Source of the DNA: Cohnella panacarvi Gsoil 349 | GTDB taxonomy: Bacteria > Bacillota > Bacilli > Paenibacillales > Paenibacillaceae | Assembly (NCBI RefSeq): GCF_000515335.1 | Contig: NZ_KI911563.1 | Location: forward strand, 263,735 to 327,734 | Reading direction: 5' to 3' | Length of the DNA stretch: 64,000 bases | Part shown: one piece after another, positions 18,132-36,413 of the stretch | Layout: each line of letters begins with the position of its first letter | How positions within the stretch are numbered: the first letter of the stretch is position 1 | Notes under the pieces: generated by a model | Databases searched by the model: none | Told to the model about the DNA's origin: nothing | What the model saw: only the letters and a program-made list of their open reading frames with translations | Made by a program: the position numbers and the translations under genes

Positions 18132-18233
18132 GTCGTTGTGCGGGCAGTAGTTTCCAAATAATAGGATGATTGATAAAATGAGAGGGTGGTGCGCAGGATG
18201 AAGGTTAGGCTCAGTTAACGTAGCGGCAATGAG

Positions 18234-18542
18234 TTGTCGGTGAAGGGGCCGTACCATGCGGATTGGGTCGCTCGGGTGAAGCGGATGTGCTTTCGCAGGT
18301 GGAATCCGGAGGAACAGGCGTGGATCATTCCTTATACGTCGGGGGTTTTGGCGGAATTGCTTCAGCTGTTCGATGGGATTGCCTTGAGCGTTGACGATGC
18401 GCTGCTGGAGGAAAGCGAGCTGCTTGCGGACTATGAGTGGAAGGTAGCTACCTGTCGAGTTATCAACGATCGAATTCGAGCGTTCCAGTTGAGATGGGGT
18501 GAAGCGTCAGTACGCGATCAGGCTAAGGCTAGGCGGTTATAG
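18234..18542 (+). CDS. HARP-like N-terminal module of the recombinase, separate overlapping ORF
   Basis: This 102-residue ORF contains RRWNPEEQAWIIPYTSGVLA, resembling the small HARP-like domain I know at the N-terminus of some tyrosine recombinases. It reads from TTG 18234. An in-frame ATG lies at 18198, but a TAA at 18216 interrupts it (MKVRLS-stop-RSGNELSVKG), which looks like a nonsense change in an originally longer gene. Its 3' end overlaps the recombinase by 44 bp in another frame. Either the two were one protein broken by a frameshift, or they are translationally coupled. Confidence 0.55.
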   Translation: MSVKGPYHADWVARVKRMCFRRWNPEEQAWIIPYTSGVLAELLQLFDGIALSVDDALLEESELLADYEWKVATCRVINDRIRAFQLRWGEASVRDQAKARRL

Positions 18543-19323
18543 CAAGCAGACGATACGAACGTATGTCAGCCATGTCGAGCGGTTCTATCGGTATTATGAG
18601 AGGAATAGGGAACTGCGTGTCCATGACCTGCTTCCTGCTTACAGTAACAAGCTGCTTCGCGAGAATCGGTCGCATGCGTACGTCAATCAAGCGATCAGCG
18701 CCATCAAGTTCCACCTGGAGAACGTGTGCGGGATGATCGAGGGCAGCTTCTCCTCTATCCGTCCGAAGAAACAACGCAAGCTGCCGAACGTGCTGTCTGT
18801 CGCAGAGGTTAGACGGTTGCTCGACCGCGTCTTGAATCTGAAGCATCGGGCGATCTTGCTGCTGACGTACTCGTCAGGCTTGCGGGTGAGCGAGGTCGTA
18901 AAGCTTCAACTTGGCGACCTCGATCAGGATAGGCGAACTTTGCATGTGCGTCAAGGCAAGGGGAGAAAGGACAGGATGACCGTTCTGTCTGAGCATGCTT
19001 GCGCTGCGGTATTGGTCTATGTTGAACGTTATAAGCCCGATAGGTGGATTTTCCCCGGACAATACCCGAGACGCCATATCTCGGAGCGAACCGTTCAGAA
19101 GGTGTTCGAGAAAGCACTCGCCGATGCTGGAATTGCGAAGGACGTTAGCCTCCACTGCTTGCGCCATTCGTTCGCGACGCATTTGCTCGAAGGCGGCATC
19201 GACATCCGTTATATCCAAGAGCTCCTCGGCCATCGCAACGTGCAAACGACGGAAATCTACACTCACTTGGCCGTGAAGAGTATAAAGAATATTAAGAGCC
19301 CTCTGGACTCGATGATGGAGTGA
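18499..19323 (+). CDS. Tyrosine recombinase of the cassette array
   Basis: This 274-residue protein has a SAM-like core-binding domain (about 10-90) and a complete catalytic domain: R129 (SSGLRVSEV), K154 (QGKGRKDR), H219/R222 (LHCLRHSFATHL), H245 (LLGHRNVQTT) and Tyr254 (EIYTH). It ends SIKNIKSPLDSM, like IntI and relatives. The segment between the catalytic Lys region and the H-x-x-R box is short (ERYKPDRWIFPGQYPRRHIS), so the extra patch that defines integron integrases is absent. The start is a GTG inside the preceding ORF. It is the obvious candidate for moving the cassettes that begin 69 bp after its stop. Confidence 0.9.
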   Translation: MKRQYAIRLRLGGYSKQTIRTYVSHVERFYRYYERNRELRVHDLLPAYSNKLLRENRSHAYVNQAISAIKFHLENVCGMIEGSFSSIRPKKQRKLPNVLSVAEVRRLLDRVLNLKHRAILLLTYSSGLRVSEVVKLQLGDLDQDRRTLHVRQGKGRKDRMTVLSEHACAAVLVYVERYKPDRWIFPGQYPRRHISERTVQKVFEKALADAGIAKDVSLHCLRHSFATHLLEGGIDIRYIQELLGHRNVQTTEIYTHLAVKSIKNIKSPLDSMME

Positions 19324-19391
19324 GTGAGGGCATGGATTGGGGCGTAGATTCCTACTGGCCGGATGGATATGGGAAATGCGTAGATTAGAGA

Positions 19392-19398
19392 GTTAGGT
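19392..19398 (+). other. attI-like primary insertion core site
   Basis: GTTAGGT starts the arm GTTAGGTGAAATCACTGC. The reverse complement of the end of the same cassette (19970-19987) reads GTTAGGTGATGTCACTGC, 16 of 18 identical. The array therefore begins here, with no repeat on the left. It is the counterpart of an integron attI, although the sequence between 19324 and 19391 resembles no attI that I know. Confidence 0.7.
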
Positions 19399-19443
19399 GA
19401 AATCACTGCAATTACATAAAACACTTTATTGGAGGAATATACA

Positions 19444-19986
19444 ATGAAGAATCTAGCTAAAGAAATTTATGATATTTCGCATCTGACAGGCGAATTTCTA
19501 TTAAGATCAGGAAAAATCTCAAATGAATATTTTGATAAATATTTGTTTGAATCTCAACCTCAACTACTAACTAGAATTGCAGAAGAACTAAACAAACTAA
19601 TACCTCCTGGTACCGAAGTGCTTGCAGGACTTGAATTAGGTGGTGTGCCTGTTGCAACAGCACTCTCATTGAAATCAAATATCCCAGTGGCCTTTGTAAG
19701 AAAAAAGGCAAAGGAATATGGCACTTGCAAATTAGCAGAAGGCATTGATGTAAAGGGCAAAAGAGTTTGCATTATTGAAGACGTCGTAACGACTGGTGGA
19801 CAAGTGATACTAAGTGCAAATGACCTGAGAGAAGCTGGAGCAATCGTAACAGATGTACTCATAGTAATAGAAAGAAATATTGAAGGCAGAATGAAGATAG
19901 AAGAAGTTGGACTCAATTTACATTCATTATTTAAGATGGAAGAGCTGATTGAGGCAGCAATTCAGGAAGGCAGTGACATCACCTAA
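19444..19986 (+). CDS. Cassette 1: orotate phosphoribosyltransferase-like protein
   Basis: This 180-residue PRTase carries the PRPP motif VCIIEDVVTTGGQ (about 109-121) and LEGGV-like ELGGVPVATALSLK, the layout of PyrE. PyrE joins orotate to PRPP in pyrimidine synthesis. As a lone, AT-rich cassette gene it is probably a paralogue, and its true base is unknown. GGAGG precedes the ATG at 19444. The stop TAA (19984-19986) lies in the inverse core of the attC site. Confidence 0.85.
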   Translation: MKNLAKEIYDISHLTGEFLLRSGKISNEYFDKYLFESQPQLLTRIAEELNKLIPPGTEVLAGLELGGVPVATALSLKSNIPVAFVRKKAKEYGTCKLAEGIDVKGKRVCIIEDVVTTGGQVILSANDLREAGAIVTDVLIVIERNIEGRMKIEEVGLNLHSLFKMEELIEAAIQEGSDIT

Positions 19987-20153
19987 CACCATATTCACGC
20001 ATCGGGCATTCGCCCTCGGTCCGGACTGGAGTCAGAAGTGATTCGATGAGGCAATTCAGTATGCGGGGAAGCAGTTTCAGCCGGACACATCGATCCCCCT
20101 AAGATAGGAGCTATCTAAGGGGGATCGACGTCGTGAATACAACAACGTTATGC
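19981..20153 (+). repeat. attC-like site 1
   Basis: The inverse core ACCTAAC is followed by ACCATATTCACG, hairpin GGGCATTCGCCC and GTCCGG...CCGGAC. The 3' stem is ATCCCCCT/AGGGGGAT, then CGTGAATACAACAAC and core GTTATGC (20147-20153). Confidence 0.85.
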
Positions 20154-20194
20154 GAAAGTCTGTAAGAGCTATAAGTTCAAATTAATAGAAAGAT

Positions 20195-20782
20195 GTGATA
20201 CAAATTCACTCATCAAATCATCAAGTTGAAAAGTTAACTCAAATTGTACAGAAACATAAGGCCATATATGAATTTCTTGTTGGAGTGCAGGAATTGAAAA
20301 TAACTAATTACTACATTGGAGCAGGATGCATCACTCAGACGGTATGGAATTATTTAAGTAATATGCCTCTTGAGCATGGAATTAAGGATGTAGATTTTGT
20401 CTATTTCGATGAGAGTGATCTATCTGAGGAGAAAGAAGATCGATTGAAAGTACAACTTGAAAGCTTTTTTCCGGACTATCCATATAAGATTGATGTAACG
20501 AATGAAGCTAGAGTTTATTTATGGTATAAGAGCCAGTTTGGATATGAGATTGAACCATATCACTCAGTAGAAGATGCAATAGACACATGGCCGACTACTG
20601 CTACTTCATTTGGCATAAGAATTACTTCCAATAAGTGGAATGTTTATGCACCTTTCGGATTGGATGATGTGTTTAATAAAGTCGTAAGACCAAACAAGCG
20701 TCAAATTACTAAAGAGATTTATGATATGAAAGTAAACCGTTGGAAAGCGCTATGGAATGATTTAAGTATTGAGCAATGGTAG
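20195..20782 (+). CDS. Cassette 2: nucleotidyltransferase family protein (DUF925-like)
   Basis: This 195-residue protein has YIGAGCITQTVWNYL, KDVDFVYFDE (acidic nucleotidyltransferase-fold pair) and DTWPTTATSFGIRI, the pattern of the DUF925 group in the nucleotidyltransferase superfamily. The biochemical role of that group is not established. The GTG at 20195 is the first plausible start after the attC arm, with AGA-rich sequence in front. It is about 36% GC, unlike the flanking chromosome. Confidence 0.8.
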   Translation: MIQIHSSNHQVEKLTQIVQKHKAIYEFLVGVQELKITNYYIGAGCITQTVWNYLSNMPLEHGIKDVDFVYFDESDLSEEKEDRLKVQLESFFPDYPYKIDVTNEARVYLWYKSQFGYEIEPYHSVEDAIDTWPTTATSFGIRITSNKWNVYAPFGLDDVFNKVVRPNKRQITKEIYDMKVNRWKALWNDLSIEQW

Positions 20783-20806
20783 TTGATCAAAGAAGAACAG
20801 ACCTTC

Positions 20807-20998
20807 GCATAACACCATATTCACGCATCGGGTCGACTCCGTCGCCCCTTGGTCCGGCAGAAGGACGATGAGTTTCGAAGAAGCATTTCAGTGTGCAGTG
20901 AAGCGGGATCAACCGGACACATCCGTACCACCTAACCGCATCGCGGCCGCCCTTAGGGCTTTAGGTGGTGGGACGTCGTGAATACAATAACGTTATCG
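20807..20998 (+). repeat. attC-like site 2
   Basis: It runs from inverse core GCATAAC to core GTTATCG. The hairpin at position 1 is GTCGACTCCGTCG-type, and the 3' stem is CCACCT/AGGTGG. The end of cassette 2 pairs with its start (GTTATGCGAAAGTCTG versus GTTATGCGAAGGTCTG). Confidence 0.85.
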
Positions 20999-21025
20999 GA
21001 AATCGTCATAAAGGAATGAGGTCAA

Positions 21026-21763
21026 GTGGAAAAATCAAATCATAAAGAGTTTAGATTAGATGAGAAGAAAGACTATATTGTTTACTTGCACTACTTAATA
21101 ATGGTGGGTCATAAGCAACTCTATTATAGAAAGAAATATTTAAAAGAAGCTGAAGATAAGCTATATACTATGACTCTTGCTGACGATAATTCGATGGATG
21201 GAATCGTCTATGAAAATCTACGCAATAAGATTAATTTTTTGGATGTATTCCTTTTCAATCTATTTGCTGATGAATCGAAATATGCAATGTCTTATCGAAA
21301 GCTTAGAAAATATATTGATCGAAGAGTAGATGTAGAGGATTGGGGTTTACAGAGACTGCCCAAAGAGATATTGGATCTATTACAGGAACTTAATAATCTA
21401 AGAAACTGGGCAGCACACATTCCAGAGTCTATGCTCAATGCAGAATTTGAAGTTGCAAAGAAGCATAATAAGCAGTTAACCAAGGAGCTAATCTTTCATT
21501 TTTCAACCCCAATAAACGTAAATATATATAGTCGATACAATAGAGAGTGGCTAGAAGAATTATTACAAGAAAGTATGTTATTACAAGAAAGTTACAGTAA
21601 GATTTTTCAACAAATGAAAAAAGATTATTCTAAATTGATTGGAAAAAGTGTAGAAATTCAAACAAAGCATCATACTCTACCAAGATCAAATGAAGAAAGC
21701 AGAGAAATTCCCGGAATATCTTTTGAAATGCAAAATAAATCGTATAGAAAATTTGATAGCTAA
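21026..21763 (+). CDS. Cassette 3: hypothetical protein
   Basis: This 245-residue, Lys/Glu-rich protein is largely helical and has no membrane segment. Features include LPKEILDLLQELNNLRNWAA, reminiscent of HEPN-like or AbiV-like helical proteins because of the RNWAAH sequence (RxxxxH-like). That resemblance is weak. It starts at GTG 21026 after AGG. Nothing else allows a function to be proposed. Confidence 0.65.
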   Translation: MEKSNHKEFRLDEKKDYIVYLHYLIMVGHKQLYYRKKYLKEAEDKLYTMTLADDNSMDGIVYENLRNKINFLDVFLFNLFADESKYAMSYRKLRKYIDRRVDVEDWGLQRLPKEILDLLQELNNLRNWAAHIPESMLNAEFEVAKKHNKQLTKELIFHFSTPINVNIYSRYNREWLEELLQESMLLQESYSKIFQQMKKDYSKLIGKSVEIQTKHHTLPRSNEESREIPGISFEMQNKSYRKFDS

Positions 21764-21784
21764 ATCAAAGAAGATGACGACATC

Positions 21785-21975
21785 CGATAACACCATATTC
21801 ACGCATCGGGCATTCGCCCTCGGTCCGGCACGAAGTTAGAAGTGATTCGGTGAGGCATTTCAGTATACGAGGAAGCAGATGCAGCCGGACACATCCGCAC
21901 CGACTAACCGCATCGCGGCCGGCTATTGGCGCAGCCTTAAGTCGGTGGGACGTCGTGAATACAACAACGTTATGT
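21785..21975 (+). repeat. attC-like site 3
   Basis: It runs from CGATAAC to GTTATGT. It carries hairpin GGGCATTCGCCC and 3' stem CACCGACT/AGTCGGTG with inner CCGCATCGCGG. Cassette 3 arms: GTTATCGGAAATCGTCAT versus GTTATCGGATGTCGTCAT. Confidence 0.85.
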
Positions 21976-22021
21976 GAAATTCCCCAAGAGCTATAAAGAC
22001 AAAAAATCAGAAGGTGATTGA

Positions 22022-22447
22022 TTGAGCCATTTATCTGTTCGAATTTGCTCAGTAGTGGATGAAGATCTAGAGATACTTGCCTTATTTAATAAACAACTGA
22101 TTGAAGACGAGCAGCATGATAATAAGATGAATTTAGTTCAGCTCAAAGAGAGAATGAGATCTTTTATAACAACAGATTACAATGCATATTTGTTCTTTGA
22201 GGAGAATGAGATCGTCGGATATGCCTTGGTAAATCATGAGCGAAGTCCATTGTACTTAAGACAATTCTTCATTTGCAGAGATCACAGAGGCAAGAGTATA
22301 GGGAAATTGGCGTTCGAGAGATTAACTGAAGAGCTTAAAACTAAAGAGATAGATATAGAAGTCATGTATTGGAATGAAAGGGGATATGGATTTTGGAAAG
22401 CAATAGGATTTAAAGAAAGAAGTATCTATATGAGATTATCGAATTAA
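22022..22447 (+). CDS. Cassette 4: GNAT acetyltransferase
   Basis: This 141-residue protein has the GNAT fold: FFEENEIVGYALV (beta strands), LRQFFICRDHRGKSIGKLAF (acetyl-CoA loop, R-x-x-G-x-S/G) and YWNERGYGFWKAIGFKERS. It would transfer an acetyl group to an unknown substrate. The start is TTG 22022 after AAGGTGATTG. GNATs are frequent integron cargo. Confidence 0.85.
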   Translation: MSHLSVRICSVVDEDLEILALFNKQLIEDEQHDNKMNLVQLKERMRSFITTDYNAYLFFEENEIVGYALVNHERSPLYLRQFFICRDHRGKSIGKLAFERLTEELKTKEIDIEVMYWNERGYGFWKAIGFKERSIYMRLSN

Positions 22448-22485
22448 TGCAGTTTTGTAAGCTGACTCAGGTTGCGGGGAACTTC

Positions 22486-22673
22486 ACATAACACCATATT
22501 CACGCATCGGGCATTCGCCCTCGGTCCGGCAGGAGTTAGTTGTGGATTCAGGGAAGCATGTCAGCGACGAGGAAGTAGATTCAGCCGGACACATCCGCAC
22601 CGACTAACCGCATCGCGGCCGCCCCTGGCGGGGCTTAAGTCGGTGGGACGTCGTGAATACAATAACGTTATCC
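22486..22673 (+). repeat. attC-like site 4
   Basis: It runs from ACATAAC to GTTATCC. It carries hairpin GGGCATTCGCCC and 3' stem CACCGACT/AGTCGGTG. Cassette 4 arms: GTTATGTGAAATTCCCC versus GTTATGTGAAGTTCCCC, one mismatch. Confidence 0.85.
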
Positions 22674-22694
22674 GAAATACCTGAGAGGAATAAT

Positions 22695-23117
22695 ATGAAA
22701 ACAAAAATCAAAACCAAATGGAAATCGTTATTTGTGGTATGTTCAATATTCATTATTTTATACATAGGTTTCTATGTATGGATTTTAAGTAGTGTGAAAC
22801 AAACAGTGACATCAATTTACTTATATAAGGCAAACAGAGGCCCGGTAAGTAATGTATCAGAAGATATTAGGGATGAGTTTTTAAAGTTTCAAACATATCC
22901 TAATAGAGGACCCGATGACAGAATCCATATTGAATTAAGTACAGGTAAAGTTTTTCATACATTTCTATATGGAACGGTCTGGATAAAGTACACATATGAA
23001 GGGATTGATACAAACACAAACGAAGTCAAATATGGATTCTCGAAAGTTCCAATAAAAATTAAAGTAAAATTAGATAACTGGGAATGGAAGTTAGTTGAGA
23101 AAGATGAAGAGCCATAA
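22695..23117 (+). CDS. Cassette 5: small membrane-anchored hypothetical protein
   Basis: This 140-residue protein has a basic N-terminus (KTKIKTKWK) and one membrane helix (about 11-30, SLFVVCSIFIILYIGFYVW). An extracytoplasmic domain follows that I do not recognise. GAGGAA precedes the ATG at 22695. An upstream start at 22653 would translate the repeat and is rejected. Confidence 0.65.
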   Translation: MKTKIKTKWKSLFVVCSIFIILYIGFYVWILSSVKQTVTSIYLYKANRGPVSNVSEDIRDEFLKFQTYPNRGPDDRIHIELSTGKVFHTFLYGTVWIKYTYEGIDTNTNEVKYGFSKVPIKIKVKLDNWEWKLVEKDEEP

Positions 23118-23149
23118 ATAGCATGTATCTCAATGAAGTCAGGTACTTC

Positions 23150-23343
23150 GGATAACACCATATTCACGCATCGGGTCGACTCCGTCGCCCCTTGGTCCGG
23201 CAACTGGTTGAAGCATTTTCGATGAGGCATTTCAGTAGACGAGGAAGCAGGATCAGCCGGACACATCTCACCACCTAACCGCATCGCAGCCGCCCCGTTG
23301 GGACTTAAGGTGGTAGGACGTCGTGAATACAACAACGTTATGC
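23150..23343 (+). repeat. attC-like site 5
   Basis: It runs from GGATAAC to GTTATGC. It carries a GTCGACTCCGTCG-type hairpin and 3' stem CCACCT/AGGTGG. Cassette 5 arms pair over 18 nt with one mismatch: GTTATCCGAAATACCTGA versus GTTATCCGAAGTACCTGA. Confidence 0.85.
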
Positions 23344-23366
23344 GTAATAGGTCAAAAACATTAATT

Positions 23367-23738
23367 ATGTGTGAGGTTTCCAAGATGGTTGATAGCAAAA
23401 CACAAATTGAAATATTACTTGCAGGAGATCCACTACGTTTCGCATGTAACAAATTGGGTGTTAAGGATATGACCCAAAATAGTTACAAAGAAGTATTTAC
23501 TGTAAGTAAAGAAGAGATTTTTCAATATGTCTTAGCGAATGGCATCCCGCAAAACTATTCAAATAGCAGACATTCAGTCGTCGATGGTTTCCATTTCTTT
23601 GAAGATGAAGGGAAATGGTATACGTGTTTCAGAGAAAGAGGCTTTATTTTTGATGACCATGAATTTATTGATTATGAAGAAGGAGCTAAATATATAGTTG
23701 AGATCTTATTAAAGATGACAGGAACGGGACTTTATTAG
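23367..23738 (+). CDS. Cassette 6: hypothetical protein, immunity-like appearance
   Basis: This soluble acidic protein of about 123 residues has HSVVDGFHFFEDEGKWYTCF and FIFDDHEFIDYEEGAKYIVE. Small acidic proteins of this kind are often immunity proteins, but I cannot name a family. The start is ATG 23367 or ATG 23385. The open frame extends upstream into the repeat, which I exclude. Confidence 0.55.
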   Translation: MCEVSKMVDSKTQIEILLAGDPLRFACNKLGVKDMTQNSYKEVFTVSKEEIFQYVLANGIPQNYSNSRHSVVDGFHFFEDEGKWYTCFRERGFIFDDHEFIDYEEGAKYIVEILLKMTGTGLY

Positions 23739-23763
23739 GCTTCTCTGAGAAGCGACCTACTAC

Positions 23764-23955
23764 GCATAACACCATATCACGCATCGGGTCGACCCTGTCG
23801 CCCCTCGGTCTGGACCGGAGCTCGATGAGTATCAGTGAGGCATTTCAGTATACAGGGAAGTATTTTCAGCCGGACACATCCGCACCACCTAACCGCATCG
23901 CGGCCGCCCTTCGGGCTTAAGGTGGTGGGACGTCGTGAATACAAGAACGTTATCG
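23764..23955 (+). repeat. attC-like site 6
   Basis: It runs from GCATAAC to GTTATCG, with 3' stem CCACCT/AGGTGG. Cassette 6 arms pair over 17 nt with one mismatch: GTTATGCGTAATAGGTC versus GTTATGCGTAGTAGGTC. Here arm position 9 is T on both sides, a compensated change. Confidence 0.85.
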
Positions 23956-23971
23956 GAAATTACCCTAAAGC

Positions 23972-24253
23972 TTAAAAATCATGAAACATGTACTTTGACA
24001 AACATATCCCATCTTTCATACCTTGTTCATACATATAGACCTCAGAGAGACAATGAAGGTAGTTGATGCTCTCCTCGAACTCCAATAGTAATCCAATATG
24101 TTCTTCCGGAAGCTGATGTTTAATATTTTCAAGTAGTTGGTTAACTGCATGATTTACTTCTTGATAGTTCTTATACAAATTTTTGATGTGGGGGCTATGA
24201 TCGATGGTGCGTTGAAAGATGAATTTCTCAAAAGCCTCATTGAAATTAGTCAT
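23972..24253 (-). CDS. Cassette 7: DUF6809-like helical protein, reverse orientation
   Basis: The 93-residue helical protein includes INYLHCLSEVYMYEQGMKDG near its C-terminus, a pattern like the DUF6809 proteins of Bacillota (assignment by eye, tentative). It is the only supported gene in the well-preserved part of the array that faces the recombinase. It is divergent from the Cro/C1-type gene of the same cassette, with 176 bp between them that probably hold both promoters. Confidence 0.55.
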   Translation of the reverse strand: MTNFNEAFEKFIFQRTIDHSPHIKNLYKNYQEVNHAVNQLLENIKHQLPEEHIGLLLEFEESINYLHCLSEVYMYEQGMKDGICLSKYMFHDF

Positions 24254-24429
24254 AATTCAACATCACTCCACCATCTATATTTTTAATTTCGCGTAAATAA
24301 ATTTGATAAGTTAAATATAACTTAACCAATGCAAAGAATCTTGTCAAGCGTCAATTCGAAAATTTCTTTGATTAAGCAAAGATAACTAGTTATAATTAAA
24401 GGAAAGTTTAGGTCGAAGGGAACAAGAAC

Positions 24430-24630
24430 ATGATAAGTTATAAGCCATTGCTTAAAATGCTTATAGATCGGGATATTAAAAAACAAGAGTTAATGAAGTT
24501 AGCCGGGATCTCTTCAGCGACCATGGCGAAGTTAAATACAAATCAATATGTATCACTGGAGGTAATCGATAAGATTTGCAAATCATTAAATTGCCAACCC
24601 GGTGACATTTTAGAGTACATACCTGAATGA
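24430..24630 (+). CDS. Cassette 7: Cro/C1-type helix-turn-helix regulator
   Basis: This 66-residue single-domain HTH protein has KQELMKLAGISSATMAKLN (the helix-turn-helix) followed by SLEVIDKICKSLNCQPGDIL, the XRE/YozG pattern. AAGGGAACAAG lies before the ATG. It probably binds its own divergent promoter region. The pair with the reverse gene resembles a small regulatory or stabilising module. Confidence 0.8.
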   Translation: MISYKPLLKMLIDRDIKKQELMKLAGISSATMAKLNTNQYVSLEVIDKICKSLNCQPGDILEYIPE

Positions 24631-24690
24631 TCAGGTATGTTTTATTTTAAGGACGGACTTTGTAAGCTGGAACTGAAAGAGGGTAACTTC

Positions 24691-24860
24691 CGATAACACC
24701 GTATTCACGCGGCGGGTCGACATTCGTCAACCCTTGGTTCGCCAGCAGAATGTTCGAGGAAGCGAAATCAGGCAGACAACCCTGCGAGGCTAAGTGGCGA
24801 AGCCACCCGGCGACTCTGTCGCCATAAGCCTCTCGGGTTCGTAAATACAAAACGTTAGCT
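24691..24860 (+). repeat. attC-like site 7, divergent version
   Basis: It runs from CGATAAC to GTTAGCT (170 bp). Its 3' domain has a different sequence but the same shape: GAGGCTTA-like outer stem with AAGCCTC, inner GTGGC-GAA-GCCAC and GGCGAC-TCT-GTCGCC. Cassette 7 arms: GTTATCGGAAATTACCC versus GTTATCGGAAGTTACCC. Confidence 0.8.
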
Positions 24861-24885
24861 GAAATTGCTTGAAGGATGTGAATAA

Positions 24886-25347: not shown

Positions 25348-25372
25348 GCACGTCAATGAAGCAAGCAACTTC

Positions 25373-29450: not shown

Positions 29451-29477
29451 ATGTAACTCAAAGATGTAAGCGACTTC

Positions 29478-29666: not shown

Positions 29667-29694
29667 GAAACCAGCGCGAGAAAGGAACATCAAC

Positions 29695-30189
29695 ATGCTT
29701 ACATTAAAACTTACTAAAGATTTACTGAAAGACATGAAAACTACACCAATTGAAGACGTCAATGCAGCTCCATTTTTAAGTTGGCATGTACATATATATA
29801 ACTTGAATAAAAGGAAACACATTGTCTTTGTGAACGATCAAACTAGATTAGCTGTTATCATTGATGGAATAAGAACAGGGCAAACAGAGCGATTGAAAGA
29901 GAGATTCATGCTAACCCTTCGGGAATATTTACTCCGAGAGGGAGTTGTTGAAAGTTTGATCAATAGATATTTGGCGTATGGCTCAGAAGTAGTTATTTCT
30001 AAGACAAACAACAGAAGTGTATTAGGAACAATGAAAGAAGTTACTTGGTTTATTGAAGATGATTTTCACGATAATATTGAACGTTTGATGTGGCTGAATA
30101 GAATGATTCATAAACCAATAGATTACATGAAACCGATCGAATACTTTAAAGAATCATTATGGGATCATAAAAACTACAACACCGTTTGA
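29695..30189 (+). CDS. Cassette 15: DUF6933 domain protein
   Basis: This 164-residue protein begins MLTLKLTKDLLKDMK and has FLSWHVHIYNLNKRKHIVF and VIIDGIRTG, the DUF6933 pattern as I remember it. No biochemical function is known for the family. AAAGGAAC precedes the ATG. Confidence 0.7.
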   Translation: MLTLKLTKDLLKDMKTTPIEDVNAAPFLSWHVHIYNLNKRKHIVFVNDQTRLAVIIDGIRTGQTERLKERFMLTLREYLLREGVVESLINRYLAYGSEVVISKTNNRSVLGTMKEVTWFIEDDFHDNIERLMWLNRMIHKPIDYMKPIEYFKESLWDHKNYNTV

Positions 30190-30216
30190 AAGATGAATCA
30201 AGGTGGCACTGGCATC

Positions 30217-30408
30217 GCCTAACACCATACTCACGTATCGGGTCGACTCCGTCGCTCCTCGGACCTGCAGAAGTTAGATGTGAATTCGATGAGGCATTTC
30301 AGTAACGGAGAAGCTTATTTAGCCGGACACATCCGCACCACCTAACCGCATCGTGGCCGCCCTTCGGGCTTAAGGTGGTGGGACGTCGTGAATACAAGAA
30401 CGTTATGC
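30217..30408 (+). repeat. attC-like site 15
   Basis: It runs from GCCTAAC to GTTATGC, with 3' stem CCACCT/AGGTGG. Cassette 15 arms: GTTAGACGAAACCAGCGC versus GTTAGGCGATGCCAGTGC. Confidence 0.85.
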
Positions 30409-30446
30409 GAAACCGTCTAATAATTATTAAGAGATGGAGTTGAACC

Positions 30447-30926
30447 ATGTATATCTCTAGGGCATTAAACACGGATGACTTATTAAAGATATGTTCATTT
30501 CCACAATCAGCTGAGGAATTATTTTATGTGAGTCCAAGATTTAAGTATCCTTTAACACTTGATCAAATTTTAGAATTGCTTATTGATAGATTTGAACCAA
30601 CGGTGATCATCGAAGAAGCTACAGGCGATATTGCTGCATATGCAAATCTATATGACTTTAATGACGAGACATGTTGGCTAGGGAATGTGATAGTCTCTCC
30701 GAGTCACAGAGGAAGAGGTGCTTCCGAGGTCTTGATAAATTCCATTATTGAGAAGATCAAAGATAAGTATAAAATCAATAAGTTACTACTGAGTTGTCAT
30801 AGTACAAATTCAAGAGGACTAGCATTTTATTCGAAACATCATTTTAGACCTTTTGATTTAAAAGTCATTAAATTCGAAGATGCAAGGAAAGTCATTACAA
30901 TTCAAATGGAAAGAGAACTGAATTGA
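30447..30926 (+). CDS. Cassette 16: GNAT acetyltransferase
   Basis: This 159-residue protein has the GNAT acetyl-CoA loop VSPSHRGRGASEVLIN (about 90-105), the upstream strand DETCWLGNVI and the downstream LLLSCHSTNSRGLAFYSKH. The substrate is unknown. GATGGAG precedes the ATG. It is unrelated in detail to the GNAT of cassette 4. Confidence 0.85.
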   Translation: MYISRALNTDDLLKICSFPQSAEELFYVSPRFKYPLTLDQILELLIDRFEPTVIIEEATGDIAAYANLYDFNDETCWLGNVIVSPSHRGRGASEVLINSIIEKIKDKYKINKLLLSCHSTNSRGLAFYSKHHFRPFDLKVIKFEDARKVITIQMERELN

Positions 30927-30951
30927 AAGTGACTCAAGTAGTGACGGCAAC

Positions 30952-31142
30952 GCATAACACCATATTCACGCATCGCAGCCTTTCGGCTGTTCGGTCCGGT
31001 AGATGTCTGAAGTGATTCGATGAGGTATTTCAGTGTTCAGGGAAGCTTAATCAGCCGGACACATCCGCACCGACTAACCGCATCGCGGCCGGCTCCTGAC
31101 GGAGCCTTAAGTCGGTGGGACGTCATGAATACAACAACACCG
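30952..31142 (+). repeat. attC-like site 16 (core lost)
   Basis: The inverse core is GCATAAC. Its first hairpin is CAGCCTTTCGGCTG, a third sequence version at this position. The right end reads AACAACACCGGAAAT, so the GTTA core is deleted. Cassette 16 arms: GTTATGCGAAACCGTC versus GTTATGCGTTGCCGTC. Confidence 0.8.
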
Positions 31143-31330
31143 GAAATCCCCGAGTGCTAAAAAAGAAGAGAGGAAAAGCATTCATTTAAGAACGGGTTAC
31201 TCGCGACGACATGTATATGGGATTTATAATACGTTGTCGCGATCAAGATCATAATGATTAATGATGATAAAAGCCCGTGAATGGATTACAATTCCATTTA
31301 AGGGCTTTTATAAATTTCTGACTATTAGAA
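31143..31330 (+). other. Cassette 17: no protein gene
   Basis: No ORF is supportable. It contains TCGCGACGACATG...ACGTTGTCGCGATC, an inverted repeat (about 31201-31246), and the strong hairpin at 31269-31309. It may hold a small RNA or be a remnant. Confidence 0.5.
31269..31309 (+). terminator. Hairpin in cassette 17
   Basis: AAAAGCCC pairs with GGGCTTTT around AATGGATTACAATTCCATT, itself an inverted repeat. It is nearly perfect and symmetric, so it could stop transcription on either strand. Confidence 0.65.
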
Positions 31331-31417
31331 CGCACCAGCAACACGCCTAACTGCATCGCGGCCAGCTCCTAAGGGACCTTAAGTCGGTGGGACGTCGTGA
31401 ATACAACAATGTTAGAT
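31331..31417 (+). repeat. attC-like site 17, right half only
   Basis: It starts at CGCACCAGCAACACGCCTAAC, continues through AGTCGGTGGGACGTCGTGAATACAAC in shortened context and ends at GTTAGAT (31411-31417). The left half is absent. Confidence 0.75.
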
Positions 31418-31888
31418 GACATTCTCGTAAAGTCTCAAATAGAAAGAGGGATCAATATACAAAGGCGAAAATTTGTGCCGATTGTAATTATATTAATCAT
31501 TTGTACAGGGTTCATTGGATACTGGCTCTTAGAAGAATCGAATATTAATTCAAAGTATGTTAAAGAAGTCTTACTAGAATGCATCCAAATTTGCTTAGAA
31601 CAGAAGAATGCACCGTTCCCTCAAAAACAATTCAATGATAAACAATCGATCGATCTATTTCTCGATGCCATAAATAAAGCTAAACCAATAAGTGGATCTC
31701 TTGACTATGGTGTTGATTTCATGATGACAATCACCATGAATGAAGGGGAACAAAAAAAATATTACTTAAATATCGGTAATACGGAGAGACCGCAAAATGG
31801 TCTTTTGATAAAATTACCAAATACTGAACAAGGATATTCAATTTCACAAAAAACAAGTAAAAAGTTACAACAATTAATATACAAATGA
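31409..31888 (+). CDS. Cassette 18: membrane-anchored hypothetical protein
   Basis: This protein of about 159 residues has one membrane helix (FVPIVIILIICTGFIGYWLL). The outer domain contains YYLNIGNTERPQNGLLIKLP and is not recognised. The best start, ATG 31409-31411, straddles the core site, so the initiator AT comes from the preceding cassette. No clear ribosome-binding site is seen, so the start is uncertain. Confidence 0.55.
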   Translation: MLDDILVKSQIERGINIQRRKFVPIVIILIICTGFIGYWLLEESNINSKYVKEVLLECIQICLEQKNAPFPQKQFNDKQSIDLFLDAINKAKPISGSLDYGVDFMMTITMNEGEQKKYYLNIGNTERPQNGLLIKLPNTEQGYSISQKTSKKLQQLIYK

Positions 31889-31925
31889 GGATTCGGAGAG
31901 GCATTCCAGCAGCGAAGCTGGCGAC
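31877..31925 (+). repeat. attC-like fragment inside cassette 18
   Basis: ATTCGGAGAGGCATTCCAG matches the middle loop of the repeats (ATTCGATGAGGCATTTCAG). Both ends are missing. It suggests a former boundary between the two genes of this unit. Confidence 0.5.
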
Positions 31926-31988
31926 ATAGAACCAAATGAGAGTTTGGTCCGATCAATAAAAGAAAATAGAAAGGGATGAGACCAAACA

Positions 31989-32351
31989 ATGATATCGTTT
32001 TCTGAGATTCGAAAATATATTATGAAATTGCCTGAATCCCAGGAAGTAGAACATTGGGGCAAACCTTCGTTCCGATTAAAGAATAAGATTTTTGCTGTGC
32101 TCCAAGAAGATGGAGTTACATTAACAGTTAAAACGTCAGCGGAAGAACGCGAAATTCTTACTCAATTAGAGCCCAATATCTTTCGAATACCAGAGACATT
32201 TGCAAAATTGAATTATATGAATGTAAATACGAAATTAGTTAAATCAGATGAAGCAAAGTTATTACTCTTAAGGGCATGGAGAAGCGTAGCTTCAAAGATA
32301 CTCATAAATCAATTTGAGGGTAATTCCGAAGAAGACCGAGGTATCACCTAA
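31989..32351 (+). CDS. Cassette 18: MmcQ/YjbR family protein
   Basis: This 120-residue protein has the family pattern EVEHWGKPSFRLKNKIFAVL (about 20-39) and a C-terminal LLLLRAWRSVASK. The fold is a double-wing-like domain, sometimes annotated as DNA binding, and the role is unknown. The stop TAA lies in the inverse core of site 18. Confidence 0.8.
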   Translation: MISFSEIRKYIMKLPESQEVEHWGKPSFRLKNKIFAVLQEDGVTLTVKTSAEEREILTQLEPNIFRIPETFAKLNYMNVNTKLVKSDEAKLLLLRAWRSVASKILINQFEGNSEEDRGIT

Positions 32352-32510
32352 CACCATATTCACGCATCAGGTCGACTGTGTCGTCTTCGGTCTGGCAGAA
32401 GTAAGATGTGAATCGATCGATGGTTATGAAGTGAATAAGAGCGCTTTTAGAAGGAGGAATAAATAGATGGATGCAGGTGGTGGGCGTTCGTGAATACCAC
32501 AGCGTTAAGT
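32346..32510 (+). repeat. attC-like site 18, degenerate
   Basis: The inverse core ACCTAAC and left box are intact. The middle is rearranged, and the right end GTGGTGGGCGTTCGTGAATA reaches core GTTAAGT (32504-32510). Cassette 18 arms match partly. Confidence 0.65.
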
Positions 32511-32535
32511 GACATACACCAAAGGGCGGAGAACG

Positions 32536-33198
32536 ATGATAAAAGGCATATTATTTGATTTAGATGGGACATTACTTGATCGAGATCAGTCATTGATCGC
32601 TTTTCTTGAATATCAATACAATCATATTCATGCTCTTCATGTTGTTGAAAAGCATGTTTTCATTAAAAGGTTTATTCAACTGGATCAGAAGGGATATGTA
32701 TGGAAAGATAAAGTTTATCAAAGTCTCATTGAAGAATTGAATCTAAATTTAACCTGGGAAGAATTATTGGAAGACTATGTTGAGTCGTTTCAGAGTCATT
32801 GTATTGGGTTCACTGGCGTGATTGAAACACTAGATTACATCAAGAGAATGAACTTAAAGCTAGGTATCATAACAAACGGATTTGGTCGATTCCAAATGAA
32901 TAATATAAAAGGTCTTATGATTGATCGTTATTTTGATTTGATCTTGATTTCAGAAATTGAAGGCGTAAGAAAGCCCAATATTGAGATATTTGCGAGAGCA
33001 TTAAATCGCTTAGGAATAGAACCACACGAAGCGGTATTTGTAGGAGATCATCCAGTTAATGATGTTGAAGCGAGTATAAAGGCTGGAATGATAGGAATAT
33101 GGAAGGAAGATGAGTTTTTTGAAAAACCTTCAAATGTAAATGGATCGATTAAGAACCTAATAGAAATTATAGATATCCTTGAGAGTATTTCAAAGTAG
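32536..33198 (+). CDS. Cassette 19: HAD family hydrolase
   Basis: This 220-residue HAD phosphatase has motif I LFDLDGTLLD (about 5-14), motif II IITNGFG, motif III Lys in GVRKPNIEIF and motif IV FVGDHPVNDVEA. It resembles YjjG-like small-molecule phosphatases. The substrate is unknown. The ATG at 32536 gives the family's usual start, just before motif I. Confidence 0.85.
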   Translation: MIKGILFDLDGTLLDRDQSLIAFLEYQYNHIHALHVVEKHVFIKRFIQLDQKGYVWKDKVYQSLIEELNLNLTWEELLEDYVESFQSHCIGFTGVIETLDYIKRMNLKLGIITNGFGRFQMNNIKGLMIDRYFDLILISEIEGVRKPNIEIFARALNRLGIEPHEAVFVGDHPVNDVEASIKAGMIGIWKEDEFFEKPSNVNGSIKNLIEIIDILESISK

Positions 33199-33199
33199 T

Positions 33200-33238
33200 G
33201 GTGTACGTCGTACAACACCCTATACAACAACGTTATCG
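33200..33238 (+). repeat. attC-like site 19 with its interior deleted
   Basis: The arm GGTGTACGTCGTACAAC (pairs partly with GTTAAGTGACATACACC at 32504) is followed directly by ACCCTATACAACAAC and core GTTATCG. About 150 bp of hairpins are missing. Confidence 0.6.
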
Positions 33239-33267
33239 GAAATTCATGTCATACGGGAGGGACAAAA

Positions 33268-33834
33268 ATGAAAAAAGTTCTTTCAATCTTACTTAGTTTC
33301 TCAATTATTATAGTTGGACTGATGTTATTTCCTGAAAGCAAAGCCTATGCATGCAGTTGTGCAGGTGCTGATGCTAAGGGAAAGCTAGAAAGATCTCATG
33401 TGGTCTTTTTGGGGAAGGTAACCGATAAAGGCGGAACAAAAAAATTCGATCATGGACGATTAAGGAAATATTCTTTTGAAGTCGATCAGGCATGGAAAGG
33501 TACAAATGAAAAACATATAACAATTTATAGCTATGATGGACCAGGGGCATCCTGTGGATTTGAGTTCGAAAAAAATCAGGTTTATTTAGTTTACTCATAT
33601 AAAGGCGATAATAATTTGTTTCAAACAAATCTTTGTAGTGGAAATTTAAATTTATCTCAAGCAAGTGATGATCTCCAACAATTAGGGGATGGAACTATAA
33701 TTACTGAAAGTGAAGATGATAACTTAAATAATGGAATCCGCAATCAATCAGTAAATCCAGTAGTTACGGGAACCATATTAGTGATGGCAATTATATTTAT
33801 AACTATTTATAAGGTGAAGAAGAGGAACAATTGA
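33268..33834 (+). CDS. Secreted, membrane-anchored NTR-like protein
   Basis: This 188-residue protein has a signal peptide (about 1-27). The mature part begins with a CSCAG motif, like tissue-inhibitor/NTR-fold proteins, with HVVFLGKVTDKG and conserved cysteines (ASCGFEF, TNLCSGN). A C-terminal membrane helix (VVTGTILVMAIIFITIY) precedes a basic tail. The role is unknown. GGGAGG precedes the ATG. Confidence 0.7.
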   Translation: MKKVLSILLSFSIIIVGLMLFPESKAYACSCAGADAKGKLERSHVVFLGKVTDKGGTKKFDHGRLRKYSFEVDQAWKGTNEKHITIYSYDGPGASCGFEFEKNQVYLVYSYKGDNNLFQTNLCSGNLNLSQASDDLQQLGDGTIITESEDDNLNNGIRNQSVNPVVTGTILVMAIIFITIYKVKKRNN

Positions 33835-33993
33835 ATGTAAGTTAACCAGGAAGACATGATTAATGCAGTCGGACGCATCGATCAACTGGTGATTCCATAT
33901 GAATGTAGTTTCGGATTTCTTTATGATTTTTGTTATTTTGGGGTTTATAAGAATCGAACGTAAACTACAAAGCAAGTTAAAGAATGATGAAAG

Positions 33994-34055
33994 AATAAAC
34001 TCCATATTCACGCATCGGGCATTCGCCTTCGGTCTGGCAGGAGTCTGAAGTGACT
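33994..34055 (+). repeat. attC-like fragment, left part
   Basis: AATAAACTCCATATTCACG is followed by CATCGGGCATTCGCCTTCGG in shortened form and the loop start. No right half is attached. Confidence 0.65.
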
Positions 34056-34168
34056 CGATGAGTACGTAAGATGAAATACCGGTAAATGATACACAACCTT
34101 CAAGATCAAATGTTAAACCGCAGATCTTGTTGGTGTATAATGTAAAGAAAGGAAACGGAGGTATTCCA

Positions 34169-34342
34169 ATGAGCCTAGAGGAGAAGTTACTCCAGGAGTT
34201 TGTAACTCTACCCGAAGACAAGAAGATTGAAGTAATTGATTTTGTTGAGTTTTTAAAATCAAAGACGCAGCCATCGGTTGAATCACTGATGGATTCCATA
34301 ATTAAAGAGAACCAAGAAGCGTTTAAGGAGTTGGCTAAGTGA
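34169..34342 (+). CDS. DUF2281-like small protein, possible antitoxin
   Basis: The protein has 57 residues. MSLEEKLLQEFVTLPEDKK and VIDFVEFLKSK match the DUF2281/VapB-like helical pattern common in antitoxins. No toxin gene is adjacent. GGAGG precedes the ATG at 34169. The terminator-like hairpin at 34454 follows. Confidence 0.65.
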   Translation: MSLEEKLLQEFVTLPEDKKIEVIDFVEFLKSKTQPSVESLMDSIIKENQEAFKELAK

Positions 34343-34351
34343 ACAACATTT

Positions 34352-34400
34352 CGCTTGCATCGCAGCCGGGTGGGACGACGTGAATACAACAACACGTATC
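34352..34400 (+). repeat. attC-like fragment, right part
   Basis: TGCATCGCAGCCGGGTGGGACGACGTG-like sequence, in shortened form, leads to GAATACAACAACACGTATC. The core GTT is disrupted. Confidence 0.6.
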
Positions 34401-34453
34401 AGAAATTTCGCCAATCCTAACAAACGATAAGAGGAAAACCCAAATATTTGTAG

Positions 34454-34480
34454 AATAGTGCAGATGAGCACTATTTTATT
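34454..34480 (+). terminator. Intrinsic terminator
   Basis: AATAGTGC-AGATGA-GCACTATT is followed by TTATT. It separates the DUF2281-like gene from the secreted protein gene. Confidence 0.65.
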
Positions 34481-34503
34481 AGTTGTGGGAGGCACTCTCA
34501 AAT

Positions 34504-34926
34504 ATGTTTAAAGCATTTGCTAAAATGATTCTTTCATTTACATTGGTATCCGCGCTAACGATTAGTTCGGTTTCTGCAGCAAGTAAATCTGTAAAGATCA
34601 AAATTACTTATGTTAATGCAGAGCTAGTTGAGAATAATCATGTAGGCAACGAATGGGCGACTAGTGGTATCATAAATAATAAAGAAATCCTCGAAGGAGA
34701 TTCAATAATTCTTGATATGAAGTCAACAGATTCTATCAAGATAAAGGCAAAAGCATCTGAACTTGATAAGATCCCTGACTCAGGTTCAGGAAGCACATCA
34801 ATTAAGGTTTCAGCAATTACAAAGAAAACTACAAAAACATTAAAAGTAACAGTAAAGGAAAATCGAGGTAGATACTCAGGCAATACAGCGGAATGGAAAT
34901 TTATATTCGAAATTTCGAAGCTATAG
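34504..34926 (+). CDS. Secreted hypothetical protein
   Basis: This 140-residue protein has a signal peptide (MFKAFAKMILSFTLVSALT...SVSA). The mature domain has a beta-rich look (KIKITYVNAELVENNHVGNE) and ends in a Lys/Thr-rich strand region. No family is recognised. GGGAGG lies 12 nt before the ATG. Confidence 0.6.
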   Translation: MFKAFAKMILSFTLVSALTISSVSAASKSVKIKITYVNAELVENNHVGNEWATSGIINNKEILEGDSIILDMKSTDSIKIKAKASELDKIPDSGSGSTSIKVSAITKKTTKTLKVTVKENRGRYSGNTAEWKFIFEISKL

Positions 34927-34934
34927 TTTCATTA

Positions 34935-34969
34935 AGCCAAATTCAAACTCGAAATTGGCTTTGTTGTTG
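34935..34969 (+). terminator. Intrinsic terminator
   Basis: AGCCAAATT pairs with AAATTGGCT with one offset, followed by TTGTTGTT. It is 9 bp after the preceding stop. Confidence 0.65.
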
Positions 34970-35001
34970 AAAATGTTTGAGGGGCACGAATGACTCTTTA
35001 A

Positions 35002-35289
35002 CTATTTTTGTTGTTTGCGTTTCCAATAATACAGATACCCAAATAGCCCTATAAAAATTAATGCGAACCCTGGAAAACCAATTAGATTATACGACCATCT
35101 GATGAATCTAAAGATCCAATATAACGCAAATAGAGTAATTAAGAAGATAACTGCGTACATCGTATCATTGCTTGAGCCCCCTGATGCCGGACGACTTCTA
35201 TTATTTCTGCGACTTTGTTGACGATTATATCGTGTAACAGTATGTCTAACAGCATTTCTAACATTATTTCGAAAGCTCCATCGACGCAC
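35002..35289 (-). CDS. Small membrane protein of unknown function
   Basis: The protein has 95 residues. An Arg/Asn-rich N-terminus (RRWSFRNNVRNAVRHTVTRY) is followed by two membrane helices (YAVIFLITLFALYWIFRF and GFALIFIGLFGYLYYW) and a basic tail. It faces the recombinase, unlike most cassette genes. No family is recognised. Confidence 0.55.
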   Translation of the reverse strand: MRRWSFRNNVRNAVRHTVTRYNRQQSRRNNRSRPASGGSSNDTMYAVIFLITLFALYWIFRFIRWSYNLIGFPGFALIFIGLFGYLYYWKRKQQK

Positions 35290-35406
35290 TTAATAACCCC
35301 CAAGCAATGATGTTGTACAGTAATGGTTAGCTTAAAGAAATAGGACACAACATAGTATATACTCTTAAACAATTAACTAACAACATTGTATGAGGTCAAG
35401 ACCTTC

Positions 35407-35455
35407 ATCTAACACCATATTCACGCATCGAGACATTCGGCCCTCGGTTCAGCAG
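35407..35455 (+). repeat. attC-like fragment, left part
   Basis: The inverse core ATCTAAC, then ACCATATTCACGCATCG and a partial first hairpin, runs into the terminator of the next minus-strand gene. Confidence 0.65.
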
Positions 35456-35457
35456 AA

Positions 35458-35480
35458 CAAAAAATCCCCGTTTCCGGGGA
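35458..35480 (-). terminator. Terminator of the DUF898-like gene
   Basis: On the minus strand TCCCCG-GAAA-CGGGGA is followed by TTTTTTG. Confidence 0.8.
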
Positions 35481-35488
35481 AAGTTGAA

Positions 35489-35836
35489 TTACTCGAATGT
35501 AGTGTGTTTTGCTTTCCATTTCTCTAGGGCAATAAATAACCAAAAACTATAAATACCGATCGTAATGATACATAATAGAAACCACTTAATCCAGTTACCG
35601 AAAAGTCCGATTGCAGTGCCATGGAATTTGAGTCTGCGTCCTTCAACAACAGTGTGATTTATTTTCCAGCCATAAATCATGCACAATGCCCACGGATAGC
35701 ATATTCCTAAAGTGAAGACTGTAACAAAAAAGCCTAAAATTGACCAACCGATGTAAGAGAGCAATCCACCGTCAAAGTAAGATTTGCCCCCGCCGAGTTG
35801 ATTGTTTGAAATATGTACATTTACTACAGGCTCCAC
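35489..35836 (-). CDS. DUF898-like membrane protein
   Basis: The 115-residue protein has YFDGGLLSYIGWSILGFF, TLGICYPWALCMIYGWKI and WLFIALEKWKAKHT, the pattern of DUF898 (YjgN-like) membrane proteins. It has about three helices. The function is unknown. Confidence 0.7.
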   Translation of the reverse strand: MEPVVNVHISNNQLGGGKSYFDGGLLSYIGWSILGFFVTVFTLGICYPWALCMIYGWKINHTVVEGRRLKFHGTAIGLFGNWIKWFLLCIITIGIYSFWLFIALEKWKAKHTTFE

Positions 35837-36067
35837 TAACTCAACCGCCTCTCAAAAAAATAACTTCTAAATACATTATTCTACATTTTCAGTCATATAC
35901 CTTCATTTAATGATAAAATATCCCATATGAATGGCTCTAGCACCTTTTCAATCTTTGATGAGATAAAGGCATTAAAGAAATCTTTCCCGAACGACAATGG
36001 AGTCGTCAATTCAAGTTGGCGGGAACAATCTTAGAATACTTCCGTATGGGAAGAGGTGAAAGTATTA

Positions 36068-36361
36068 ATGGCAACTGCTAATAGAAATCAAAGAATTTGT
36101 GAGAAAGGTCATCATTACTTAAAAAGTAGCGATTGTCCAACTTGCCCGATCTGTGAACAAGAGCGTAAACATACAAATGGTTTTCTTTCTCTTCTCTCTG
36201 CACCCGCAAGACGAGCATTGGAACACAATGGAATTAACTCTCTGCAAAAACTGTCGATGTACTCTGAGAAAGAGATCTTACAATTACACGGTATGGGAGC
36301 TGCATCAATACCTAAACTTAGGACTGCATTGCAAGAAGTAGGACTGTTATTTAAGAACTGA
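36068..36361 (+). CDS. RpoA C-terminal-domain-like helix-hairpin-helix protein
   Basis: The protein has 97 residues. The N-terminal half has Cys/His pairs (ICEKGHHYLKSSDCPTCPIC), a likely zinc ribbon. The C-terminal half (LEHNGINSLQKLSMYSEKEI then LHGMGAASIPKLRTALQEVG) is the helix-hairpin-helix fold of the RNA polymerase alpha C-terminal domain. It could bind DNA, which is inference. AGGTG precedes the ATG. Confidence 0.7.
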   Translation: MATANRNQRICEKGHHYLKSSDCPTCPICEQERKHTNGFLSLLSAPARRALEHNGINSLQKLSMYSEKEILQLHGMGAASIPKLRTALQEVGLLFKN

Positions 36362-36372
36362 ATCTAATTTAC

Positions 36373-36413
36373 GGGACTTAAGGTAGTGGGGCGTCGTGAA
36401 TATAACGAATGGT
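36373..36413 (+). repeat. attC-like fragment, right part; last trace of the array
   Basis: GACTTAAGGTAGTGGGGCG then TCGTGAATATAACGAATGG resembles the 3' end of the repeats, with a damaged core. No further copies were seen downstream. Confidence 0.6.

Follow-up and report, generated by a model that had tools for sequence, protein, structure and literature searches.

Integron cassettes start at the GTT of the preceding recombination site, and their first bases match the left core of their own site, the two having met in the circular form. The cores of attC sites follow the consensus RYYYAAC on the left and GTTRRRY on the right, and the terminal stem of sites of the IntI type is the 7-nt core. 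According to the accessible part of one study (PMC9024848), integrons are extremely rare in Firmicutes, their lack in such clades is called intriguing, and Limnochorda pilosa holds the only complete classical integron reported there. Here we describe an array in 64,000 nucleotides of the Cohnella panacarvi Gsoil 349 genome (contig NZ_KI911563.1; the whole stretch is hereafter the window). Between positions 18198 and 36413, this window contains an interrupted tyrosine recombinase gene with about 20 units behind it. Together with the gene, an attI-like core (19392), 16 two-ended sites, and six remnants all lie on one strand (+). We interpret the locus as a chromosomal gene-capture platform that is integron-like in its working and is served by an Xer/XerA-like tyrosine recombinase without the IntI patch, and we give this reading a probability of roughly 0.88. 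It is a reading of sequence, drawn from the anatomy of the cassettes, the complementarity of each cassette's own arms, the position of the attI-like site, a turnover with breaks at or near GTT, and the lack of the IntI insertion. Because the patch that defines IntI was tested for and is absent, we do not count the locus as a member of the IntI integrons. The initial annotation of this stretch had proposed an integron-like organization with a non-IntI recombinase, and own-arm complementarity, signatures found downstream only, turnover, and the absent insertion all bear this out. None of the papers listed in our literature searches, which took in neither preprints nor the bulk of subscription journals, describes such an IntI-free array system.

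A window cassette opens with 18 nt that are reverse-complementary to the 18 nt leading up to and including the left core of its own site; the pairing is broken by a mismatch at offset 10 and stops abruptly at offset 18. Such complementarity is expected of units that were closed at GTT in a circle or hairpin. Across 19 cassettes, 190 of 247 informative positions matched, while permuted pairings averaged 109.2 and never exceeded 153 in 100,000 permutations; 15 of the 19 cassettes matched at 9 or more of 13 arm positions. We placed the cores by their motif and then, after inspection, moved three degenerate cores (s7, s14, and s19) by 1-4 nt, which favors a match. Before these shifts, 78 of 114 positions matched against a permuted mean of 55.7 (p ~1e-5), and with s19 off by 1 the count was 182/247, a value that again none of 100,000 permutations reached. 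When the left flank of one integrated site was compared with its right flank, agreement stood at the background level (89/208). The mismatch at offset 10 is A/C in all 80 Bacillota pairs selected by the scan described below and in 13 of 14 motif-located Bacteroidota pairs, the latter counted by eye. For 12 cassettes we also modelled the sites in circle form, which folded to a mean of -46.0 kcal/mol on the bottom strand compared with -34.5 kcal/mol for the integrated form. The bottom strand folded better than the top in nine of these 12 circle-form sites (means of -46.0 and -43.3 kcal/mol, p = 0.016). Unequal spacers and a branched terminal structure can be made out in the folds, to be set beside the unpaired central spacer, variable terminal structure, and extrahelical bases by which attC is defined in the accessible part of PMC2727003.

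The arms can be sought independently of any repeat, and we scanned related loci for GTTR...YAAC pairs with complementary 18-nt arms. A minus-strand count was considered as a control and proved unusable, as the signature is its own reverse complement, and for that reason the upstream flank was taken instead. In 13 Bacillota loci, we obtained 76 matches (pairs, not cassettes) in 85,122 bp downstream of the recombinase versus none in 130,013 bp upstream, with a downstream match at 12 of the 13; the remaining locus has 129 bp downstream. A further 38 Bacillota loci were drawn from the genomes introduced below, 20 of them from the 117 at the order level, where long contigs were preferred, and 18 from the 25 at the phylum level; they yielded 176 matches in 309,875 bp downstream versus five in 306,897 bp upstream, and 35 of them had at least one downstream signature. 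For Bacteroidota we used a shorter-arm signature, itself drawn from three of the 22 loci scanned, and found 48 matches in 91,432 bp downstream versus one in 201,263 bp upstream. Fifteen of these 22 loci were matched, and five of the seven unmatched ones have less than 300 bp downstream. Plasmid-borne homologs are among those with signatures, namely in the Bacteroidota Chryseobacterium and Rufibacter, where three and six lie downstream of the recombinase. The first core follows the recombinase match by 84-313 bp at 11 of the 12 matched loci in the 13-locus set and at 26 of 35 in the 38-locus set. Fifteen listed relatives have an attI-like site at a comparable place, and a box there seems by eye to be conserved in most of the Bacillota ones. 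Three loci whose recombinase frame is too short for the N-terminal domain discussed below (L043, L046, and L049) had no signature in the 718, 5,479, and 10,000 bp downstream, respectively. At E <= 1e-60, the recombinase has homologs in 117 of the 392 genomes sampled from the order and in 25 of the 398 sampled from the phylum, counting the genome of the window; these counts refer to recombinase homology, arrays and the N-terminal domain having been looked for in a subset. One metagenome-assembled genome of another phylum, Latescibacterota (L072), also carries three cassette signatures downstream of a homolog, the first of them 121 bp past the match. Phage and viral collections were searched as well (4 phage records, 80 viral loci). 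Six contigs (L037, L047, L048, L055, L063, and L065) end 78-292 bp downstream of the recombinase match, as would be expected if repeat arrays follow, and draft genomes may therefore hide such arrays.

The recombinase gene of the window starts with an ATG at 18198 and meets a stop at codon 7, and its homology to three intact relatives (tblastn) shifts frame between 18428 and 18499. Its first part (18198..18428, + strand) matches residues 1-77 of the relatives in a frame that differs from the rest (open reading frame, ORF, 18234-18542), and profile searches of this region gave no Pfam and no NCBIfam match. The core-binding and catalytic part (18499..19323, + strand) is 274 aa long, matches Pfam Phage_integrase at 2.4e-42, and contains R, HxLRH, and Y motifs recognized by eye. 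Its top NCBIfam match is XerA_Arch (NF040815), with 215.2 bits against a cut-off of 220, and its Cohnella lupini homolog (L034; 61% in comparison with the window recombinase) reaches 222.6 bits with the same model. In the window the KGxxxR and HxLRH motifs are 65 residues apart, and the spacing is 64-65 in 27 of 27 family members, compared with 66 in one archaeal XerA and 107 in one Vibrio IntI (the motif did not catch IntI1). By this spacing, the IntI-specific patch between the catalytic motifs is absent from the window recombinase and from all 27 family members, in agreement with what the initial annotation had said of it.

The alternative that survives best, although we regard it as unlikely, is that this is a classical integron with a divergent IntI and atypical attC sites. 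Several features of an integron are present, as the attI-like site adjoins the recombinase gene and the gene-plus-site cassettes stand in tandem, mostly in one orientation, with a GTT core; moreover, the best Foldseek match of one relative is IntI4 of Vibrio cholerae (E 2.6e-15). However, the family profile aligns with IntI4 in two separate stretches that leave a gap between, the window recombinase scores 198.2 bits with the integron integrase model integrase_gron, whose cut-off is 265, and the motif spacing given above is far from that of the Vibrio IntI. The GTT is retained, but RYYYAAC fits only 6 of 20 left cores and GTTRRRY 4 of 17 right cores. In a recombinase tree built without the host XerD, three IntI rows form a clade of their own (100/99) that is separate from the array clades. 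This tree gives no firm branching order for IntI, the two array clades, and other tyrosine recombinases, and it is compatible with convergence as well as with a shared origin with IntI. A search of 21 genomes and 14 controls with TIGR02249 gave no match even in the controls and is thus uninformative.

Cassette turnover was compared pairwise among 11 loci of one genus, and 18 of the 55 pairs passed a flank-alignment filter. In these 18 pairs, the upstream flanks are 82-92% identical over 43-95% of 8.5 kb and the recombinases are 75-99% identical at the DNA level, while only 4-18% of the 10 kb downstream can be aligned. Apart from the attI stretch and sites that are alike, the longer pieces in common are cassettes at different places. 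For example, one cassette with 92% identical DNA lies 139-904 bp after the recombinase in L099, at the attI position, and at 7978-8715 in L098, and the identity starts at the GTT core. The L095/L099 and L094/L095 pairs switch at or just before GTT, and some other common pieces start inside a cassette and not at GTT. Among more distant species, a protein 74.6% identical to that of window cassette 1 is encoded at another position in L041. According to the initial annotation, genes and repeats fixed in order across strains would have spoken against an integron, and such a fixed order is not what we see between related species: the arrays differ, common cassettes lie elsewhere, and the breakpoints are at or near GTT. 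The evidence for cassette mobility by recombination at the core is comparative, and at the level of sequence it comes from related species rather than from this strain. In one array (L035), the cassettes at 11014 and 13568 are 87% identical over 612 bp, a duplicated cassette.

Homologous recombination between the repeats might also have changed such arrays, with the recombinase a mere passenger or an Xer of dimer resolution. The repeats would permit this, the recombinase gene is broken here, and XerA_Arch is its top NCBIfam match. However, recombination between repeats would neither place breakpoints at GTT nor keep 18-nt arms complementary within each cassette, and tyrosine recombinases have relatives at four or more further places in the genome; we consider this explanation improbable. 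Repeat families in the window reach 18 copies, and a 20-mer from the left end of the site, searched with up to 3 mismatches, has 17 matches in the closed 4.77-Mb genome, all in this array and all on the + strand, while its reversed control has none in the whole genome. Although long palindromic-type elements in an AT-rich island could suggest a dispersed palindromic repeat or transposon family (MITE-like or REP-like) lying between ordinary genomic-island genes beside an unrelated recombinase, this is hardly credible given that all genome matches fall in one array on one strand, that the unique arms pair within a cassette and not across one repeat copy, that co-location with the recombinase recurs on one side only, and that gene plus site form one unit common to related genomes.

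If the locus is indeed a gene-capture platform, the recombinase would bind the folded site, whose outer stem would be made of the two complementary ends of one cassette, and would cut at the GTT core. The circular cassette would then be joined to the attI-like core, usually 70-310 bp downstream of the recombinase's own gene, and excision would be the reverse of this joining. The fold would be recognized by the N-terminal domain. The recombinases of the relatives carry this extra domain, with a predicted beta-beta-alpha-beta-beta-alpha fold, and in structure comparisons it weakly resembles the UvsW N-domain, the XPB DRD, and SMARCAL1 HARP (PF07443). These helicase domains are among its best structural neighbors, if with weak scores, and on the basis of the predicted model the domain may bind structured DNA. 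In the L055 and L048 homologs, with open frames of 623 and 573 aa, the small N-terminal domain by eye seems to occur twice. A Deltaproteobacteria clade of IntI with about 120 extra residues is described in the accessible part of PMC2426708, and these residues may be a domain of the same sort.

Several observations weigh against our interpretation. The recombinase gene of the window is interrupted, the distal array is decayed, and four of the 19 cassettes pair poorly (6, 6, 1, and 2 of 13 positions), the last two in the decayed distal end. Matches in the arm scan include nested or overlapping pairs and hence are not counts of cassettes. Among the 38 further Bacillota loci, three had no downstream match (3,398, 209, and 152 bp being available) and four had a single one, and two Bacteroidota loci (L056 and L069) showed no cassette signature in the shorter-arm scan of 10 kb downstream. 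Wobble pairs in the arms did not significantly favor the bottom strand (10 vs 6). Covariation inside the sites is close to nil, as RNAalifold on 13 sites found 9 of 34 pairs changed on both sides and a covariation term of about 0, and support for the structure therefore comes from the arms and not from the site interior. The best Foldseek match of the N-terminal domain has an E value of 0.15, CASTOR1 and eIF1 equal XPB in VIA scores, and its profile searched against the PDB has cyclin B as a top match (E 0.002), with HARP at 0.87. The parts of the scheme that we infer are circles, recombinase activity, the use of a single (bottom) strand as substrate, and the role of the N-terminal domain in recognizing the fold. 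Because the recombinase gene is interrupted, the window array may be frozen and is probably a stalled case of a system whose intact forms are found elsewhere. Opinion could go either way on a broader proposal, namely that these loci represent a second integron lineage apart from IntI, present in Bacillota, Bacteroidota, and at least one Latescibacterota metagenome-assembled genome, both chromosomal and plasmid-borne. In such a lineage, an N-terminal structure-specific DNA-binding domain would replace the IntI patch, and private 18-nt ends would let the hairpin close completely only once the cassette is an excised circle, favoring integration over excision.

The island stands out by its composition, with a GC content of 0.34-0.43 per 1-kb step at 19-36 kb versus 0.51-0.63 upstream of 18 kb, and the bodies of 13 measured cassettes are AT-rich (GC 0.31-0.37). 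The attI-like site (19370..19410, + strand) has its GTTA core at 19392, 69 bp past the recombinase stop, and its right half is the own arm of cassette 1. The initial annotation had placed a core site next to the recombinase; it was located near 18198, a position that falls inside the interrupted recombinase gene, whose broken frame had gone unremarked, and this candidate was rejected in favor of the core at 19392, which pairs with cassette 1. About 19 units with sites of 165-194 bp had been proposed; we count about 20 units, and the 16 two-ended sites are 159-188 bp long. They have a GC content of 0.45-0.57 and the pattern TAACACCATATTCACG...CGTGAATACAACAACGTTA, with a mutated core in a few of them (e.g., s8, s11, s13, and s16), and the six remnants are left-only or right-only halves or a 23-bp relic at 33213-33235. 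The claim that nearly all units share one orientation is true of the sites, all of which are on the + strand, and less so of the genes: ORFs at 24253-23972, 35289-35002, and 35836-35489 are on the - strand, and across all arrays examined, 81 of 103 cassettes have their longest ORF on the + strand. A search for Rfam RNA families between 18000 and 40000 gave no match up to E 0.1. The sites at 25353-25554 and 29458-29659, which belong to different cassettes, are 96% identical over 202 bp, possibly through recent duplication or site exchange. Two other cassettes share a 48-nt repeat (83%; 27821-27868 and 31262-31309) with what by eye is a terminator-like palindrome.

The cassettes, all on the + strand, encode unrelated products, and many of their ORFs have no recognized family. 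Cassette 1 (19392..20146) carries a phosphoribosyltransferase gene (ORF 19429-19986) and site s1 (19984-20150), cassette 2 (20147..20991) a nucleotidyltransferase of the NTP_transf_6 family and s2 (20810-20995), and cassette 3 (20992..21968) an unknown ORF (21026-21763) and s3 (21788-21972). A GNAT acetyltransferase gene lies in cassette 4 (21969..22666; s4 22489-22670), followed by unknown ORFs in cassettes 5 (22667..23336; s5 23153-23340) and 6 (23337..23948; s6 23767-23952). Cassette 7 (23949..24853) encodes an HTH_26 regulator (24430-24630), together with an ORF on the - strand, and ends in a divergent site, s7 (24694-24857), and cassette 8 (24854..25556; s8 25376-25560) has a small ORF that is DUF4362-like below the cut-off. 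The stretch of cassettes 9-10 (25557..26672) comprises a gene-poor cassette with a left site half at 25817, an ORF at 26005-26457, and s10 (26493-26676), and cassette 11 (26673..27479; s11 27302-27483) contains a P-loop kinase-like ORF (PRK family), with a related cassette in L034. Cassettes 12-14 (27480..29659) hold unknown ORFs, a GIY_YIG_2 ORF at 28923-29450, and sites s12 (28029-28201), s13 (28703-28886), and s14 (29481-29663); arm pairing is poor (6/13) in the first of them. The DUF6933 gene (29695-30189) of cassette 15 (29660..30401; s15 30220-30405), which has a related cassette in L071, matches the PADLOC candidate defense family PDC-S63 (E 4e-18), the sole clear match among 10 ORFs run. 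Cassette 16 (30402..31410) encodes a GNAT protein and has s16 (30955-31140), followed by a right site half ending at 31414. The next cassette (31411..32503; s18 32349-32507) holds an unknown ORF and a YjbR ORF and also pairs poorly (6/13), and the one after it (32504..33235) encodes a HAD hydrolase (ORF 32509-33198), terminates in the 23-bp relic, and pairs at 10/13. In this last cassette, the outer half of the arm pairs at 7/7, and three variable bases next to the core are unpaired. The decayed distal end (33236..36413) contains unknown ORFs, a DUF2281 ORF, and a DUF898 ORF on the - strand, with half-sites near 33997-34060, 34357-34397, 35410-35450, and 36373-36407, and own-arm pairing is lost there (1/13 and 2/13).

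If the system is active, Bacillota would possess a gene-capture system of their own, one missed so far by searches because these are built on IntI and the attC model. The system would allow the recombinase features required for recombining folded DNA to be tested independently, would add a new pool of cassette genes, and might serve as a gene-shuffling tool for Gram-positive bacteria.

Among described systems, the XerA-type recombinases of archaea, TnpF of Acinetobacter, and a rhizobial tyrosine recombinase linked to IS91 resemble the window recombinase in having core-binding and catalytic domains without an insertion. In contrast, at the one Acinetobacter and one Bradyrhizobium locus that we compared, the frames span 221 and 286 aa, which leaves no room for the extra domain, and they adjoin IS91-family transposases with no array annotated there. 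The Acinetobacter gene (L080, 1534-2199; 45%; TnpF; a 221-aa frame) is located on an Acinetobacter baylyi plasmid between ISVsa3 and tet(X3). Treponema integrons, likened here by description only, share a recombinase transcribed toward attI and the cassettes but are described as intI systems in the accessible part of PMC3607928. Sedentary chromosomal integrons of the Vibrio superintegron type likewise combine a tyrosine recombinase and an attI-like site with cassettes in tandem, GTT cores, sites that fold, and cassette turnover. They also share a frequent loss of the recombinase frame, and nearly one third of intI genes are pseudogenes according to the accessible part of PMC2426708. The present system occurs in Bacillota, for which one complete classical integron has been reported, and in Flavobacteriia (accessible part of PMC9024848). 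Unlike IntI integrons, it has no IntI patch, carries an extra N-terminal domain, and keeps the recombinase upstream of attI on the same strand. Its sites differ from theirs as well, in a terminal stem of about 18 nt that is private to each cassette and bears an A/C mismatch at offset 10.

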